Below are positions 1 to 10,744 of a DNA stretch of 11,036 nt, piece after piece. Location of the stretch: positions 1 to 11,036 of the forward strand of contig NZ_BAIO01000045.1 in NCBI RefSeq assembly GCF_000613305.1, in the 5' to 3' direction. The first letter of the stretch is position 1; each line of letters begins with the position of its first letter. The DNA is from Komagataeibacter kakiaceti JCM 25156 (GTDB lineage Bacteria > Pseudomonadota > Alphaproteobacteria > Acetobacterales > Acetobacteraceae). Position numbers and translations under genes: made by a program. The notes below the pieces were generated by a model. The model was given only the letters and a program-made list of their open reading frames with translations. It was not told where the DNA came from and ran no database searches.

Positions 1-544
1 CAGAGCGGCGGCCTTGATCCCCTGCTCGGCTGCGAAGCGGCGGGCGTTGGCCGCCCTGTTTTCCAGCCCGTCGACGCCATCCGGTCCTCTTCGCGATACT
101 CGTTGAACTGTGAGGACAGTTCGCGGGCCTGCGCGCGCTTGGCGTCATAGAACTGGGCAGCCCCGAAGGCGGACGCGACAGCGGCACCCGCCATGCGCTG
201 GAGGTGCATTTCCAGCCCCTTGTCGTTCTGCTCCCCGTTCCATGTGGTCACGACCAGCACGGGCGAGAGGCTGCGGGCGATGACGGTGAAAGCCTGCCGG
301 GCCGTTTCCGCGAGGGCGTCGGCGTCGAAGTCCTCAAGGCCGAAATGGGAAACGATCTTGGTGATCTGGTCGGGAACGGGGATCAGGCTTCGGCGGCCTC
401 GATGGTGATGACAGGCGCGCGCCGGGCCGCTTCCTCGAAGCGGCGGGCAGCGGGAGCCTTCTGGCCCGATTTTGCCTTGCTGGCGGCTTTCTTCTCTTGC
501 GCGGAAGCAAGGGCGGCGGTCATTGTGTTGGTAGCGTTGGACAT
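1..544 (-). CDS. Unknown conserved-looking protein, 5' part only, two frameshifts
   Basis: The start is the ATG at 544, with a weak AGAAAGG about 9 bases upstream. The first frame gives a Lys/Ala-rich N-terminus (MSNATNTMTAALAS...) and stops after 53 residues at 383-385. The next frame, read from 386 downward, gives a well-formed globular sequence (IPVPDQITKIVSHFGLEDF...) with no start codon of its own, and joins smoothly if one C is restored (EAL-IPVP). A second shift near 81-82 is cured by restoring one G (EEDR-DGVDGLENRAANARRFAAEQ). With both repaired, one open frame of exactly 182 codons runs to base 1 and off the window. I do not recognise the family. The later part is helix-rich and charged (AKRAQARELSSQFNEYREEDR). 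The two losses could be real decay or sequence errors. Confidence 0.6.
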
Positions 545-639
545 GAAACTAGGCCTTTCTGTCTGGCGTCAGCCCTGTCCGGTGTTCCACCACCGGGCGG
601 GGCGTCTGTGGCGGGAACCATTTCCCTCTCCACAAATAA

Positions 640-2704: not shown

Positions 2705-4757
2705 TCACAAGCCAAGCGCATTCAGTTCCTGATCAACCTGCCTCCAACGGCCGTCAGACTGAGGTGGTTCGTTCCTACCATGATTCCAGCTGCTGACCCG
2801 GTTCTCGAGTGGAATTTCGTCAATGAACCGGCTCGGACGGGAAGATCCGCCTTGGCGATAATCACAGAACGTGATCGTGGCCTGCTCCATGGCCCGGGTC
2901 AGCGCCACATAGGCAAGGCGACGCTCCTCTCCGGGATTGCGCGACATCGCACCGGGGAAAATCGCCTCTTCCCATGCAGGAAGAAAGACATGCCGGAATT
3001 CCAGTCCTTTCGACCGGTGCATGGTCATGAGCTGAACGCGATCACGACCTTTTTCTCCAGGTGCTCCGCCTGCCAGTGCCGCATGTTCGAGGAGGTGTTC
3101 CACGCGCCGGAAACCCTGGGCCAGTTCGATCAGTTCCACGAGGTTTTCGCGCTGGGTTGCAGCTTCATCCGAATCATCAGCCCGCAGCATGTCCAGATAC
3201 CCTGTTGCCTCGAGCAGGCCGGTAAGGCGCTCCCCAAGGCTTTCCCCTTCCCGACATCCGATCTGTCTGAGAATCTGGACGAATCCCTGCAGCGCCACGG
3301 CACATCTCGGGGACAGCCGGGTCCGTGTGGCCGCCGCGCATAGCGACAGCCCCCCCCGCCGAAGCCTCTATCTCGATTTTCCCCAGGCCCCTGGCGCCAA
3401 GGCCCCGCGGGGGCCGGTTGGCCATCCGCCGAAAGGCTTCGTCCGACCTGCGCTCATCGGGCCATGCACAAAGCGTCAGCAGGGCCAGAGCGTCCTTGAC
3501 GGCGGTACGCCGATAGAAACCCACATCCCCGATGATCTCGTAGGGGACACGGGCGTGGAGCAATGCTTCCTCCAGCGTTCGGGAAAGCCGGTTCTGGCGG
3601 TAAATGATAGCCATGTCATGCCAGGCGACGCCGGTCGCTGCGCGACGGCCAATCTCCCGGACGATCGCCGCAGCTTCCTCGGTGGCGTAGGAGAACCCCA
3701 GAACCTCGATCGGGAGGCCCTCGCCCCGACGTGTAAACAGTGTCTTTTCGATCCGCGACGGGTCAAATGAAATCACCGCATTCGACGCATCAAGAATATT
3801 GCTGGTAGAACGGAAGTTCTCCTCGAGCTTGAACGTCTTCACAGCAGGAAATTCACGCGGGAAGTTCCGCAGGAAGCCGACTTTCGCCCCCCGCCAGGAA
3901 TAGATGCTCTGGGAATCATCACCCACACAGAACAGTTCACCAGACGTCCTGCTGAGCAACGTGAGCCACAGGTACTGGGCGCGGTTCACATCCTGAAACT
4001 CGTCCGCCATCACGGCCGTAAAACGGGCGGACCACCGGCGATGGTATGCCGCATCATGCAGCATCGCGAGGGTCGGCCACATCAGCAGATCACCAAAATC
4101 CGCCGCGTTCTGCTCGCGCAGGATCGCCTGGTAACGACCATACAACCCGACGACAAAGCGCCAGCTTTCGTGATCCACATGGAGATTCGCCGACTGCCGC
4201 CTGCCGATCAGGCTTTCAACATGCGCGAAAGCAGCCACCGGTGTGATCAGATCCTCTTTCAGCCGCGCAATCCGCTCGGCCATTTTTTTGATCTGTCTCG
4301 CATCTCCTGGCGCTCCTTCCTGCGGCACGGGAAGCTTTTCCTTAGGGACAGTCCTGATCAGGCGGCGGACAATGGCGAGACTGTCCTCGGCGTCACGAAT
4401 GTCAAAACCGCTACGCAATTGCGCCACTTCAGGCTCGGCCCGTAGCTGTCGGGCCGCAAGGGCATGAAACGTTCCAAGCCATGTGGGTACCGAGTACGTC
4501 CCAAGAACGTCTCCGATGCGCTTGCGCATTTCCTGGGCGGCCTTGTTGGTAAAGGTTACACAGAGGATCTGGCCAGGAACCATGCCATGCAGTCCGACGC
4601 GGGTTGCGACCCCGGCTGTCAGGGTTTTGGTCTTGCCGGTGCCTGCCCCTGCCAGAACCAGAACATATCCCAGCGCCATCGCCGCGCGCCGCTGTTCTGG
4701 CGTCAGGCTATCAAGGACTGGCGCAAGCGCACGCGGAACGGGAAGATTACCGGTCAT
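2705..4757 (-). CDS. UvrD/Rep/PcrA-type superfamily 1 DNA helicase, frameshifted
   Basis: An ATP-dependent 3'-5' DNA helicase by family, about 683 residues when repaired, close to the usual UvrD/Rep size. Visible motifs: Walker A AGAGTGKT (36-43); VTFTNKAAQEMRKRI (67-81); TFHALAARQL (96-105); Walker B DEFQD (252-256); GDDSQSIYSWRGA (279-291); EENFRSTSN (312-320); after the shift, TMHRSKGLEF (about 577-586) and RRLAYVALTRA (about 615). The reading frame changes at a run of eight G (plus-strand C, 3350-3357): seven would keep the frame open (EASAGG-LSLCAAA). The ATG at 4757 overlaps the upstream stop as ATGA, so translation is coupled. The helicase could act on incoming or replicating plasmid DNA. 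A chromosomal uvrD would not sit in such an operon. Confidence 0.88.
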
Positions 4758-5397
4758 AGCTCTTCCAGCCCTTCCGCCATGCAACCCGGGGTCGTGGTGA
4801 TCTTACCGGTCGAGAGCAGGATCGTCGCCGGATAGGAAAGATCCCAGTTCCCAAGCCTGCGTTCCCAGCGTCCATCGATAACCAGGCCGACAGGACAGCC
4901 CGACCGTTCGTAGAGGCGGACTGCACTTTGCGGTATCGGGGGATCATCTTCGGCCTGCGCCAAATGCTGGCGCAGGTGGCGGTTCCAGATGGTCTGGGCC
5001 AGGGGCGACCGGACAAACATCCGTGAAAGGTCTACCTTCATCGCCAGACGCGCGATCCCCCGATCCGCATAGTCTGAAACAGATCCCATGACCCTCTCCT
5101 GTGTGAGATGATCCTGCGCGCAGGACCGTTCGGCGCCCACCTCTGTGGCATGCCAGCCGTAAATGACGATCATCCCGTGATCGTCGGTGAAGGAGGCGAT
5201 GCGGCCTGCCAAGTCCCGGCCTCGAGCCATCGAGGCCGCGCGTTGCCCCGCAACCGACGCGCCACGTAATTCCACATATCCGTCGCCACCCTGGCATAGG
5301 CGTTCGGGCATGCGCGCAGGCCTGCATATATCTGGACAAAGCCTGCAGCCCGCGATGCCGTCTGCCCGGTGAGCCGAAAGGATTCACGCTGGCTCAC
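4754..5397 (-). CDS. Unknown protein, about 214 aa, frameshifted
   Basis: The start is GTG at 5397, overlapping the TGA of the Toprim gene as GTGA; the stop overlaps the helicase start as ATGA. This coupling on both sides marks it as part of the same operon. The first frame reads MSQRESFRLTGQTASRAAGF to ..NYVARRLRG; it continues in the next frame as QRAASMARGRDLAGRIASFT if one G is restored to the GGGG run at 5246-5249. The remaining sequence is well formed (MIVIYGWHATEVGAE; VKVDLS-like MKVDLSRMFVRSPLAQTIW; GWERRLGNW-like RWERRLGNWDLSYPATILL). I do not recognise a family or any catalytic motif. No signal peptide or membrane segment is evident. Position between a primase-like and a helicase gene suggests a role in plasmid DNA processing, by context only. 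Confidence 0.7.
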
Positions 5398-6591
5398 AAG
5401 GACATCCCCGGCGATGAACCTAGCCGTGGTCCGGCAGGCTTCTCGACAGGTTCAGACGAAGCAGGCAATGAGGGAACCGAAACCCGCAGCGGCCGCTGCA
5501 TGCCGTGCGCCTCGGCCTGACCCAGCCATGACGGGGAAACCGTCTCCGGCTGCGCTTTCGCCCCTGAACCCAGGACTTCGGACAGGCGGCACAAGGGCGC
5601 AACGGGAACAGAACCTGCCTCCATTCCTTCCCTGCGGGTCCTCAGGACCGCATTCCAATCCTCTCCCGGCCCTTTCGGAGATATCCGTCCTGACCAGAGA
5701 CCGACGTCCCGTGCCATCGCAGCGAATTTCCCGGCATAACGATCCCCCTGCGGGTCGTTATCAACGGCAACAACCAGTCGCGCTTCAGGCTGGGCGGCGA
5801 CCTGCATCATGACCCGTTTCAGGTTCACTTCGCTCTCTGGCTCATGCCGCCACCCGTCGAGGTATAGAGCGTTCCTTGCTGGAAGCGATCGAGTGCTGCA
5901 AAGGACAATGCATCAATGGCCGCCTCGGTGACGACAAGGCGCGTCACGGGCGCTTCTCCCCCGTCGGCCCGGAAACCGAAGAGACGCTTGCCAATGCCGC
6001 CCGTCGAAAACCCCTTGTAATCCGGCCCGCGCATTTCCATGCCGGTGAACTGCCCGTCCGCATCCCGATGGCCAAACCAGGCGGTTCCGTGCGGGCCTTC
6101 CTTCAGCGCCCCCTGCTGTCCGGCAATCGCGACAATATGGTCGGGCAACCCACGGATCTCCGTCAGATAGCGCCATGCAGCCGTCCCCTGCCGGGTGCGG
6201 CACGACGGTTCCACAGTTCAGCGGGATCGCGGCGCGGTCTGTCACCGGCTCCCTTCGTACGCTCGACAACTTCGAGCGTCGGGCTCCTGCCGATCAGGCC
6301 GCGAAGTTCCTGCCTGACATGACCGAGGTTCTTCGAGGGATCGAGATACTGGACAAGCTTGAAGACATCACCTTTGCCGTCGCCCTTGGGGTCCCACCAG
6401 CCCTTGCCATCGTGATTGACAATAATGGCCTCACTGTCACGGCGAAATTTCAGGTTACGGGCGGAACGCTGCGCGGTGGCCTGCCGATCCAGCCGGAATC
6501 CGGCTTTCTCCAGAACAACGGCGCAGTTTACAGCATTGCGAAGCTCATCAAGTTCTCTTTGCTGTGCTTCTGGGGAAGACGTGTAAGCCAT
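5394..6591 (-). CDS. DUF3991/Toprim-domain primase-like protein, two frameshifts
   Basis: The start is ATG 6591, with a strong GAAGGAG (6606-6600) 8 bases upstream; a GTG at 6600 would overlap that site and is less likely. The N-terminal 110 residues resemble the CHC2-like region of plasmid primases (GKGWWDPKGDGKGDVFKLVQ, 63-80), but without zinc-binding cysteines. Next comes a DUF3991-like segment (AAWRYLTEIRGLP, YKGFSTGG) and a Toprim domain: Glu in VVTEAAIDALS (about 223) and the DxD of VAVDNDPQGD (about 278 and 280). The Glu and DxD parts of this single domain lie in different frames, so the gene is certainly broken as given. One shift is at the CCCC run 6185-6188 (restore one G), the other near 5835 (restore one base). 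Repaired length is about 399 residues, ending in a Pro-rich tail. Such proteins are thought to prime or process plasmid DNA; the exact role is unproven. Confidence 0.8.
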
Positions 6592-7065
6592 GAAAGACAC
6601 TCCTTCACGAACAGCATGGATTGTGTTTCAGACCGCTCCGGTATTTACGGTGAGTATTTGAGATGATCGTGCGGAAACACACGACGACCTCTGTATGGTT
6701 CGTCGAGATATTGCGTCCTGATGATCCGCGTTGAGGGTTTTTATTCTGCGTGAACTGCAAAAGAATACAGGACGCACGAATGGCCGCAGTTTACACGCGG
6801 CAGCAAACGGCATATGCCCGCGCCACTGCGCACGCATTACCGGGACTATGGACGAGCGGGCACTCACGACGCCTGATACTCCCTGTGGAGGATCCCGTCT
6901 GCGCCCACATCATGCGACTGACGAAAAAATAAGGTTCACGAACCCGCCTGAAGGCCGATGGAGAAACAGGAGAGACACAGTTCATCCCCGATGTGGACGG
7001 ACGACCGGCGTTCCGGTGTCGGCCGACAGGCTTTCCCGATCGCCCGCGCCATCAGCCTGTCAGTC

Positions 7066-7170: not shown

Positions 7171-7641
7171 CTAAAACGGGATTTCGTCATCCACTTCCTG
7201 CGCGTTGGAAGTTGCGGCAGGAACGGGGCGCTGTGCAGCGCTCCGCGAGGGACGCTCTTCATCAAAACGTCCATCGCCCGTGCTTCGACCATTGGCCAGC
7301 ACCTTCAGGTTTCCATCAAACCGATCAATGATGATCTCGGTCACATAACGGTCCTGTCCCTGCTGATCGGTCCATTTGCGTGTCTCGAGATGGCCTTCGA
7401 CATAGACCAGCGTTCCCTTCTGGCACCGACGTTCGATCACAGCCGAAAGGTGATCGTTGAAAGAGACGACACGGTGCCACTGGGTTTTTTCCCGTCGCTC
7501 ACCGCTGGCGCGATCGGTCCAGGTTTCACTTGTCGCCACGCCGAAGGATGCGATTTTGCCCTCCCCTTCCCTACGTGCGGCAAGATCCGGATCCCGGCCC
7601 AGGTGACCGATGATGATGGCGCGATTGACTGACTGGCTCAT
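7171..7641 (-). CDS. ssb: Single-stranded DNA-binding protein SSB
   Basis: A 156-residue protein of normal SSB length. The start is ATG 7641 with AAGGAA 7 bases upstream. The OB fold is easily read: MSQSVNRAIIIGHLGRDPD at the N-terminus, Trp41, Trp55 and Trp90 at places matching the DNA-stacking tryptophans of E. coli SSB, and GTLVYVEGHLETRKW in the strand before the last. After residue 110 comes a flexible linker and the acidic tip DDEIPF at the C-terminus, which binds partner enzymes. SSB coats single-stranded DNA in the cytoplasm; a plasmid copy typically protects DNA arriving by conjugation and dampens the SOS response. It stands alone between two operons, and its long upstream leader contains the large inverted repeat at 7676-7872. 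Confidence 0.97.
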   Translation of the reverse strand: MSQSVNRAIIIGHLGRDPDLAARREGEGKIASFGVATSETWTDRASGERREKTQWHRVVSFNDHLSAVIERRCQKGTLVYVEGHLETRKWTDQQGQDRYVTEIIIDRFDGNLKVLANGRSTGDGRFDEERPSRSAAQRPVPAATSNAQEVDDEIPF

Positions 7642-7675
7642 GGTCTTGTTCCTTTTTTCCTTCCTGGTCGTCTCC

Positions 7676-7872
7676 GGCCCCTGCCGGAACTCTGACCTGG
7701 TGCGGTCGCGCGGAAGCGGGCCACAGGCGGCGGGCGCAACCCCTCGGGGCGGCAGTGGTGCGGAAGCCGCGCATGCGGCTTCACGGTGCCGTCCCGACCG
7801 CAGGCCTGGGGGTTGCGCCCGACGACGACCGCTTCAGACCGCAAAAACCAGGTCAGAGACCCGGCAGGGGCC
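7676..7872. repeat. Large nested inverted repeat upstream of ssb, candidate single-strand promoter or structured leader
   Basis: Seven blocks pair in nested order. GGCCCCTGCCGG (7676-7687) with 7861-7872, 12 bp; CTCTGACCTGG (7690-7700) with 7848-7858, 11 bp; TGCGGTC (7701-7707) with 7837-7843; AAGCGG (7714-7719) with 7829-7834; CGGGCGCAACCCC (7731-7743) with 7809-7821, 13 bp; CGGGGCGGCA (7745-7754) with 7787-7796, one mismatch; GAAGCCGC (7763-7770) with GCGGCTTC (7775-7782). About 66 base pairs in 197 bases, with an 8-bp palindrome CAGGCCTG (7801-7808) in an internal bulge. It ends 34 bases before the ssb start codon. No coding sequence fits here. F-plasmid Frpo is a precedent for a fold-back single-strand promoter ahead of leading-region genes. 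Confidence 0.8.
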
Positions 7873-7926
7873 GAGGTCATGCTTTTGGATTTTGAATTTT
7901 GATTTCTGTTTTATTTTTCTATTTCG

Positions 7927-7956
7927 CTCATAATCGTGTCATTTATTATTGTACAA
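7927..7956 (-). promoter_or_regulatory. Possible double-strand promoter of ssb
   Basis: On the minus strand, TTGTAC (7956-7951) and TATGAG (7932-7927) are 18 bases apart. Start of transcription would be near 7920, giving an ssb leader of about 280 bases that includes the whole inverted repeat. The -35 overlaps that of the divergent plus-strand promoter inside the palindrome ATTGTACAAT (7948-7957). Confidence 0.3.
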
Positions 7957-7977
7957 TTATGATAGTCGTCCTAGAAT
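7949..7977 (+). promoter_or_regulatory. Possible promoter of the gene at 8006
   Basis: TTGTAC (7949-7954), 17 bases, then TAGAAT (7972-7977, 5 of 6 consensus). It lies in an AT-rich island with a T-rich tract (7882-7924) upstream that could act as an UP element. The predicted start near 7984 leaves a short leader ahead of GGGAG (7996-8000) and the ATG at 8006. Confidence 0.4.
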
Positions 7978-8005
7978 TTCCCTGTCTCTACATTGGGAGT
8001 TCATC

Positions 8006-8518
8006 ATGGCGGTGATTACTGCGTCGGAAGGACGCATCACCCTGAAGGCCGACTTTCATCCCGAACTGGCAATCCAAGCCCGGCGTTACAGAGGACGTTT
8101 TCTCGGCAAGGAAATTGGCTGGTCCTTCCTGCCCGAACATGAGCAGGCGATCCGCCAGCTCTGCCAGACCCTGTATGGCGTGGATGGCACGCCAGATGCG
8201 TGGCATAACTGCTGCACCGTGCAGGTCGAAGTCGACGAGCAGGATATCCGGGCACCGCTGTGGCGCCAGTTCAACGCCGGTATTTACCTCGGTGGCCGTC
8301 ACGTTGTCGGCGTTTTTGGTCCACGGCAGGCAGTTCGCACCGGCAGGGGCATAAAATTCCTGCGCGGCCAGCCGCATTGCGCCACCCGGATCGGTGCCTA
8401 CCACATGGAGGTACCCACCGGCAGCGTTCTGGAAATCCGGAAATATCCGCGTGCCGCACTGGCGTTCCTGGGCAGGTGCCTCGACGGGCATGGCTCCTGG
8501 CGCATAGCCCAGAGCTAG
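8006..8518 (+). CDS. Unknown protein, 170 aa
   Basis: The start is ATG 8006, with GGGAG 5 bases upstream. The same 13 bases, GGAGTTCATCATG, precede the gene starting at 9787, which supports both starts. The protein begins MAVITASEGRITLKADFHPE and continues with RYRGRFLGKEIGWSFLPEHE, then a Gly/His-containing middle (YLGGRHVVGVFGPR). I do not recognise it. The early pattern, an aromatic-Pro-Glu followed by R..GR......W.F and a later YG, vaguely recalls HARP-like DNA-binding segments, but that is weak. The gene is divergent from ssb, sharing its promoter region, and converges on the next gene so that the two TAG stop codons share the palindrome CTAG (8515-8518). Being paired with ssb, it may act at the same stage of the plasmid's life. 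Confidence 0.75.
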   Translation: MAVITASEGRITLKADFHPELAIQARRYRGRFLGKEIGWSFLPEHEQAIRQLCQTLYGVDGTPDAWHNCCTVQVEVDEQDIRAPLWRQFNAGIYLGGRHVVGVFGPRQAVRTGRGIKFLRGQPHCATRIGAYHMEVPTGSVLEIRKYPRAALAFLGRCLDGHGSWRIAQS

Positions 8519-9844: not shown

Positions 9845-10744
9845 TCAGGCGGCAGAAGCCACGTCCTCGACGGACGGCTGACGTGCCGATGGGCTGAAAA
9901 TGTATTGGGCCGCGGCTGAAGCAGCGCTCGCTGCGGTGAAAATGGCGCGCTTGTCAGCCTTCAGCAGTTCCAGCCAGTTCCCGATGTAATCAGCATGGCG
10001 GACCGTCGGCTCGATCTGCAGTTCCGCGCACACGAAAGCTGATGTCATCTCTGCCACCAGTTCCTCGGCCGCGTAGGCATGGTCCCCAAACCGCCTGCCA
10101 AAGGTGCGCGACAGCCGGCTTTCAGCCCCGGTCCAGTGCCCGATCTCATGAAAGACGGTTCTGTACCAGTCGATCTGGTTGAAATAGGACTGCTGGGGCG
10201 GAAGCCGGATGAAGTCCGCATCCGGGGCATAAAATGCCTTGTCACCACCGATGCGAATGTCCGCCCCGGTTTCGCGCATCAGCGCTTCCGCGTGCGGCAC
10301 GATTTCGCGTTCCGGCAACGGCGCGGTCGGCGCGACCATGCTCTCCGGCAGGTTCTCGCACTGATCAACATTGAACACCGTAAACCGCTTTAGAAACGGG
10401 ATCTGGCGGGGCTCGTCGGAACCCGCTTCTGATTTTGGCGTGAAACGGTCAGCATAAAACACCGTCGTCCCCTTCTCGCCTTTCCTGACATTGCCGCCCT
10501 GCGCATGCGCCTGGCGGAACGTCAGCCATTTCTGGGTAGAAAACCCCTGCATCTCTACCGAACCCCACAGCATGAGGATGTTGATCCCGGAATAGGCCCG
10601 ATCGGTCGCAGCATTACGCGGCAGGGCAATGCCGCATTTCGCGCGGTTCCATGGGCAGACCCATGGCACGGTTCCTGCTTCAAGTTCGCGGATGATGCGG
10701 TCAGTGACGGACTGATGGATGTCGGTACGTTCGGTTCTGGCCAT
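9845..10744 (-). CDS. ardC: ArdC-type antirestriction protein with zincin metallopeptidase domain
   Basis: A 299-residue protein of normal ArdC length. The start is ATG 10744 with TGGAGA about 6 bases upstream. The N-terminal ArdC domain, which binds single-stranded DNA, is recognisable from YSGINILMLW (51-60), WLTFRQAHAQGGNVRKGEKG (73-92) and VFYADRF. The C-terminal part is a metallopeptidase-like domain with HEIGH (199-203) and a downstream Glu in AEELVAEM (about 228 or 232) as the likely third zinc ligand. In known plasmids ArdC protects entering single-stranded DNA from host restriction enzymes; whether it cleaves protein is open. It heads an operon with three unknown small genes and sits 3 kb from ssb, as expected for a leading region. 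A hairpin terminator separates it from the gene upstream. Confidence 0.93.
   Translation of the reverse strand: MARTERTDIHQSVTDRIIRELEAGTVPWVCPWNRAKCGIALPRNAATDRAYSGINILMLWGSVEMQGFSTQKWLTFRQAHAQGGNVRKGEKGTTVFYADRFTPKSEAGSDEPRQIPFLKRFTVFNVDQCENLPESMVAPTAPLPEREIVPHAEALMRETGADIRIGGDKAFYAPDADFIRLPPQQSYFNQIDWYRTVFHEIGHWTGAESRLSRTFGRRFGDHAYAAEELVAEMTSAFVCAELQIEPTVRHADYIGNWLELLKADKRAIFTAASAASAAAQYIFSPSARQPSVEDVASAA

Follow-up and report, generated by a model that had tools for sequence, protein, structure and literature searches.

A covarying fold-back before ssb on plasmids of the Acetobacteraceae: a candidate single-strand promoter

The window, meaning the whole stretch of 11,036 nucleotides analysed here from Komagataeibacter kakiaceti JCM 25156 (contig NZ_BAIO01000045.1), is a Komagataeibacter-type MOBF/MPF_I plasmid region. 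Three genes on its minus strand are of particular concern: ssb (7171..7641, 156 aa, Pfam SSB), which is presumed to be driven by the element described below; an ArdC-type gene with ArdcN and MPTase-PolyVal domains (9845..10744), assigned to the same presumed leading region; and, at the left end (1..545), a distant homologue of a family of genes of about 198 aa (tblastn 37% over 97 aa, window 344-57, E 2e-7). Relatives share the neighbourhood: ssb is accompanied there by genes for DUF3991/TOPRIM, a UvrD-like helicase and an ArdC-type metallopeptidase, with almost every gene on the same strand. In the window, the helicase and DUF3991/TOPRIM genes (minus strand, 2705-4784 and 5394-6600) are broken up among several reading frames, each being one annotated CDS in the relative L001; these splits are either decay or sequence errors.

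A complete fold-back element occupies positions 7676..7872 and is assigned to the plus strand, the better folder and the strand that templates ssb. The original prediction had described seven nested paired blocks without giving coordinates for them, and all seven were recovered at the sizes that it named: from the base upwards, a 12-bp stem (7676-7687/7861-7872), an 11-bp stem (7690-7700/7848-7858), a 6-bp stem (7701-7706/7838-7843), a 7-bp stem (7713-7719/7829-7835), a 13-bp stem (7732-7744/7808-7820, its last pair T.G), a 10-bp stem (7745-7754/7787-7796, with one G.T) and a terminal 8-bp hairpin (7763-7770/7775-7782). The 12-bp and 11-bp stems form the base, with a 5' arm at 7676..7700 whose sequence differs among lineages while its pairing with the 3' arm (7848..7872) stays. 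Above them lies a near-invariant helix, TGCGGT/ACCGCA, whose 5' arm is 7701..7706 and whose 3' arm (7838-7843) is followed by a 4-base A-rich bulge (7844-7847), the two together spanning 7838..7847. The GAAGCGG/CCGCTTC helix comes next (5' arm 7713..7719, partner 7829-7835), and the 13-bp stem, the 10-bp stem and the terminal hairpin make up the apical half (7732..7820). All of these parts are given on the plus strand.

On one side of the apical half runs an unpaired segment, ACCGCAGGCCT (7797..7807). The palindrome CAGGCCTG (7801-7808), earlier singled out as part of the architecture, does exist, but it does not hold up as a conserved feature: except for its last base it belongs to this unpaired segment, and Acetobacter has no such palindrome. 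The same site is the position of a full side hairpin in the Lichenicola and Roseomonas copies. The predicted gap of 34 bases between the base of the stem and the ssb start codon was found at 7642-7675. It also proved right that no gene leads into the element, since the next gene rightward, as annotated in L001, runs rightwards.

Folding of both strands as single-stranded DNA upheld the structure, giving -88.4 kcal/mol (z -10.95) for the plus strand and -79.6 (z -8.75) for the minus strand, with none of 200 shuffles folding as well on either. As RNA, the plus strand reached -143.1 kcal/mol (z -8.63; 0/200 shuffles as good); in a comparison of both strands as RNA the values were -145.8 kcal/mol for plus and -142.3 kcal/mol for minus. 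In a 200-nt sliding scan scored by GC-corrected residuals, with the window and five loci supplying the fit, the element was the most extreme place in the window at -4.3 SD, the next place standing at -3.0. This is a stable single-strand fold-back beyond chance. The model R1 matched the window at 7674-7873 with 204.3 bits, the window being among the sequences from which R1 was built; there is no second R1 match in the window, and no element accompanies the left-end homologue of the ~198-aa gene.

The element region was matched in 17 records of a plasmid collection (Komagataeibacter 8, Acetobacter 7, Novacetimonas 1, Lichenicola 1), 15 of them typed as conjugative. Each of three records searched whole held a single occurrence, a weaker second match in one being the element's own other arm. 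A repeat or mobile element was considered and rejected: the window holds no second copy, and the second place found in Komagataeibacter records was again the element matching its own other arm. Among 100 genomes drawn round the nearest genome match, 20 matched, five of them (L023-L027) only by short DNA matches without a similar fold, which were dropped; genome G015 carries one copy on each of two contigs. An Acetobacter query matched 43 of 397 family genomes, in many cases through short partial matches, and 21 loci from that search were scored with R1, yielding 15 strong matches, one weak match (L087) and none at L080, L081, L084, L085 and L086. An RNA-model search over the class, among the best six candidates per genome, gave a match in at least one of 385 genomes. 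A pattern scan returned 46 loci: 28 with strong R1 matches, two with weak matches clipped by contig ends, and 16 without a match (from Bifidobacterium and Streptomyces to Erythrobacter), which were taken as chance. By record title the 30 matching pattern loci consist of Acetobacteraceae and one MAG labelled only Alphaproteobacteria.

The element recurs in Komagataeibacter, Acetobacter, Lichenicola, Rhodopila and Acidisphaera, and weakly in Roseomonas; Rhodopila and Acidisphaera we take to belong to the Acetobacteraceae. The Roseomonas matches to R1, obtained with filters off, are weak (L091, E 0.0018; L090, E 0.16), the fold nonetheless being plain. Three weak R1 matches (L091:2913, L118:4002 and L131:4804) seem to belong to a different fold-back family and are not assigned to the element, although they are still counted among the 48 element entries used below. 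Two copies have unusual settings. On an Acetobacter ascendens plasmid (L041:5957-6157) the apical part is lost and the basal arms are kept, before an annotated ssb. In genome G044, a copy before a short ORF (L055:8580-8779) lies on a chromosome-sized contig of 3.4 Mb, near a transposase-like ORF, IS110 by eye.

An ssb-matching ORF on the opposite strand adjoins 30 of the 48 element entries, a set in which some genomes stand under two loci and from which many near-identical Komagataeibacter copies were left out. Among the 30, the ORFs at L038 and L042 are fragmentary and that at L040 is displaced by 133 bases; at L089, L090 and L113 a longer ORF starting inside the element was taken, the annotated ssb of L089 starting 35 bases away. 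SSB-like ORFs, recognised by eye from their translations, lie beside L077 and L079. The ~198-aa gene family, grouped by eye and unrelated to ssb, has the same element before it at eight distinct loci (L003, L082, L083/L129, L108, L118, L120, L123 and L131). Locus L118 holds both arrangements in the same orientation, one element 35 bases before the 198-aa gene and another 33 bases before ssb, the latter a weak model match (E 0.0037). Element and start codon are mostly 32-36 bases apart, in a range from 23 (L074/L127) to 41 (L082); at L091 the distance is 60 by the partial model match and about 41 by the fold.

The paired positions change together. In A1, a MAFFT alignment of 14 sequences, 23 of 69 pairs have changed on both sides, as against 11.0 in shuffles (0/500 as high). 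Standard pairs fill 96.1% of its cells, and sliding the partner by 1-3 columns lowers pairing to 32-44%, a control that favours this structure because the structure was predicted from A1 itself. In A2, the model-fitted alignment of 32 copies, both sides have changed in 40 of 69 pairs (shuffles 20.6; 0/500 as high) and 95.6% of cells are paired. At the base, helices 2 and 3 show both-side change in 15 of 18 pairs on A2 and 8 of 18 on A1; from Komagataeibacter to Acetobacter, Lichenicola and the G044 copy, the sequence of the basal stems has been rewritten, but most of their pairing is preserved. Helix 4 (7701-7706/7838-7843) is paired in 99.5% of cells of A2, with three of its six pairs invariant; this core helix and the A-rich bulge hardly vary, and the helix is kept in Roseomonas L091. 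The original prediction had made itself dependent on a stem that recurs and covaries in close relatives, and the element is present and covarying well beyond them.

The two strands are not equivalent. The plus strand, the template of ssb, is the more stable as DNA in all 32 copies, and in 11 of 11 lineage-spanning representatives with DNA and RNA parameters alike. Consensus DNA folds of the 32 copies, each strand on its own alignment, gave -40.4 with 56 pairs for plus and -9.9 with 36 pairs for minus; for the 11 representatives the values were -37.4 and -25.7. Among columns of the plus-derived structure with a Watson-Crick majority, 23 contained G.T as against four with A.C (binomial p 0.0003). 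In the minus-derived structure the corresponding wobble columns were 7 versus 6, a neutral result and not a mirror image, which counts against the promoter reading. Neither the strand counts nor the wobble counts are independent events, because the copies share ancestry. As expected of a Frpo/ssi single-strand promoter, the downstream gene has the better folder as its template; whether it acts as plus-strand DNA or plus-strand RNA is not separated by sequence alone.

The direction of transfer bears on which strand would be found single. A MOBF relaxase gene was searched in seven targets, the seventh of which, genome G044, showed none. Of the six replicons that have one, five (G004 C2, G009 C7, G015 C31, W02 and W03) carry it on the left, when turned as in the window, and on the ssb strand; for G004 the record is treated as circular, since the interval crosses its start. 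W01 speaks against the pattern, its relaxase gene being turned the other way. Since ssb points at the relaxase gene in five of the six, the plus strand is probably the one transferred, and it would enter first if oriT adjoins the relaxase operon. Comparison of three plasmids gave no shared nic site beside that operon. A Lichenicola gene beside the relaxase-side sequence was considered as kin of StbB of R388 (accessible text of PMC3098194) and set aside, Pfam giving just weak P-loop matches.

The F plasmid offers the closest parallel. Masai and Arai reportedly described, in 1997, Frpo1 and Frpo2 as single-strand promoters of F, and the title of that work, as cited in PMC11541004, describes Frpo as serving primer RNA synthesis as well. 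F ssb runs towards the tra genes, and we take the F oriT to lie before traM, so that F ssb is directed at the tra side, where that oriT would lie, much as ssb points at the relaxase gene in the five replicons above. Like the element, Frpo is a long fold-back before leading genes, and Frpo2 is placed upstream of F ssb in the accessible text of PMC9849209. In our folding of F, the template strand is the better folder upstream of both ssb (template -87.3, coding -78.6, over 350 bases presumed to hold Frpo2) and the antirestriction gene (-103.9 and -93.9), as it is for the window element in the same comparison (-90.6 and -81.8). The fold-back before the F antirestriction gene (L138, F plasmid 50000-68000, gene at 6756) is similarly built, with a long perfect basal stem and, across 390 nt of template strand, -103.9 kcal/mol.

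The likeness ends at sequence. The hosts here are alphaproteobacterial, and against 18 kb of the F leading region there is no sequence similarity (best E 0.2) and no R1 match. On this comparison the element is not a demonstrable sequence relative of Frpo and appears to be a sequence-unrelated counterpart. No -35/-10 pair scored above shuffles in nine elements scanned, which is weak counter-evidence because the F region upstream of ssb fails the same scan. Of 12 upstream regions of F, six reach z < -4 on one strand or both; traM and traJ, which lie outside the leading region, are among the genes concerned, as are two minus-strand genes that share intergenic space with another gene. Since strong fold-backs also occur outside the F leading region, a fold-back alone is no mark of leading-region use, and covariation, strand preference and position therefore carry the argument.

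To our knowledge, single-strand promoters are known mainly from enterobacterial plasmids. ColIb-P9 has Frpo-like/ssi elements, which are structured and stand before leading genes; the element resembles them in this description. The ColIb-P9 single-strand promoters are named in the accessible text of PMC9849209 and PMC11541004. Secondary-structure promoters called Frpo' and Frpo* are proposed in leading regions in the accessible text of PMC11541004, where BLAST with five known sequences, or a -35/-10/UP consensus, brought them to light; the present family differs in how it was found, namely by covariation. As far as they are accessible, the surveys of single-strand promoters (PMC11541004, PMC12826799) relied on BLAST with known Frpo/ssi elements, on candidates, or on a -35/-10/UP consensus, and the accessible main text of PMC11541004 mentions neither Acetobacter nor Alphaproteobacteria. 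No paper on leading-region single-strand promoters in Alphaproteobacteria, Komagataeibacter or Acetobacter was found in a literature search whose scope excluded most subscription journals and bioRxiv.

From these comparisons we lean towards the reading that the element is a cis-acting fold-back in single-stranded DNA, a single-strand promoter for ssb that works like Frpo. This had been the leading suggestion of the original prediction, and the geometry, the strand preference and the repeated use before leading-region genes fit it, so that the suggestion is supported in part. During transfer, the plus strand of the window would enter the recipient single-stranded, and the 200 bases of the element would close up into a long, GC-rich double-stranded stem next to the start of ssb. 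This duplex could serve RNA polymerase as a promoter, with RNA presumably starting there, and the entering strand would be read leftwards through ssb ahead of second-strand synthesis, which the RNA may also prime.

That last step, taken by itself, makes the strongest competing account: a single-strand initiation site, at which the folded entering strand loads or primes second-strand synthesis through primase or RNA polymerase, with no dedicated role for ssb. The single-strand fold on the presumed transferred strand, the DUF3991/TOPRIM gene near ssb and the primer RNA synthesis reportedly served by Frpo itself all agree with it. We nevertheless regard it as unlikely, for pure priming would need neither a spacing of mostly 32-36 bases to a start codon, nor placement before two unrelated genes, nor two occurrences in one contig.

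The remaining alternatives on the earlier list, an ssb mRNA leader and an Xer or relaxase site, agree less well with the data. If the element were a structured leader at the 5' end of the ssb mRNA, serving for example SSB autoregulation, it would be minus-strand RNA; the place directly before the start codon, the strong fold of that RNA (-142.3 kcal/mol, as given above) and two promoter-like matches on the minus strand to the right of the element are what one would expect of it. The preference for the plus strand argues against such a leader, the minus strand being the worse folder throughout the 32 copies as DNA and the 11 representatives as RNA. Consensus RNA energies differ in the same sense (minus -41.2 vs plus -89.1 for the 32 copies; -67.6 vs -86.2 for the 11), and the same element precedes an unrelated gene, so we consider a leader improbable. 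A plus-strand RNA, acting as a small RNA, as an antisense RNA or as the leader to a gene running rightwards, seems more doubtful again. Its fold is strong (-145.8 kcal/mol), Komagataeibacter and Lichenicola L089 have a rightward ORF after the element, and the annotation of L043 places a small rightward ORF within it; yet the next annotated gene at the right runs leftwards in L002, L003, L090 and L091, a rightward promoter would fall in or beside ssb, and no Rfam family reached its gathering score in the window. A site for site-specific recombination, an Xer or relaxase site, or a terminator would account for a long inverted repeat with a conserved core but is very improbable, given the short distance kept to start codons, the relaxase gene lying kilobases away, and the finding of no intrinsic terminator (a GC-rich stem with a direct T run) in 7550-8150 in a scan allowing loops of up to 8.

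If the element works as the single-strand promoter that we favour, plasmids of a further bacterial class would also express genes early from the strand that enters, by a sequence-unrelated solution that searches by similarity or by -35/-10/UP consensus would miss. The covariation model supplies testable sites together with a near-invariant core helix. More tentatively, and with less conviction than for ssb itself, Acetobacteraceae plasmids might possess their own, independently evolved single-strand promoters. These would fall into three or more fold-back families, distinct in sequence, that precede ssb, the ~198-aa gene, the ardC operon and small leading genes, and they would be read without canonical -35/-10 sequences, by way of a near-invariant helix of six pairs with asymmetric loops on its flanks.

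Other fold-backs in leading regions were counted among genes with at least 90 bases upstream, a fold-back being defined by z < -4 on either strand. At six window-oriented loci they precede 10 of 56 minus-strand genes and none of 16 plus-strand genes (p 0.10), the template strand folding better in all 10. In L052 and L053 together they precede six of 37 genes in leading orientation and one of 25 in the opposite orientation, with the template strand better in just three of the six; in Lichenicola L054, near the genes for relaxase and secretion, the count is one of eight. Pooled, L054 being left out, the figures are 16 of 93 for the leading orientation and 1 of 41 for the opposite (p 0.02), which is suggestive only, because some regions overlap or are homologous.

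Individual fold-backs stand out beside these counts. A second family lies before a small ORF upstream of ardC (L001:15357-15480 and L002:10170-10302), with relatives in Komagataeibacter, in Gluconobacter and, by short matches, on Roseomonas plasmids; in the window its place is lost beyond the right end. A third type, with a core like GCACCC..GTGGAGCACC, was recognised by eye near small genes (L003:11862-12020, L118:3960-4230 and L091:2906-3080). In L001, a K. europaeus relative, a very strong fold-back of -90.4 kcal/mol over 200 nt lies at 651-830, between convergent genes.
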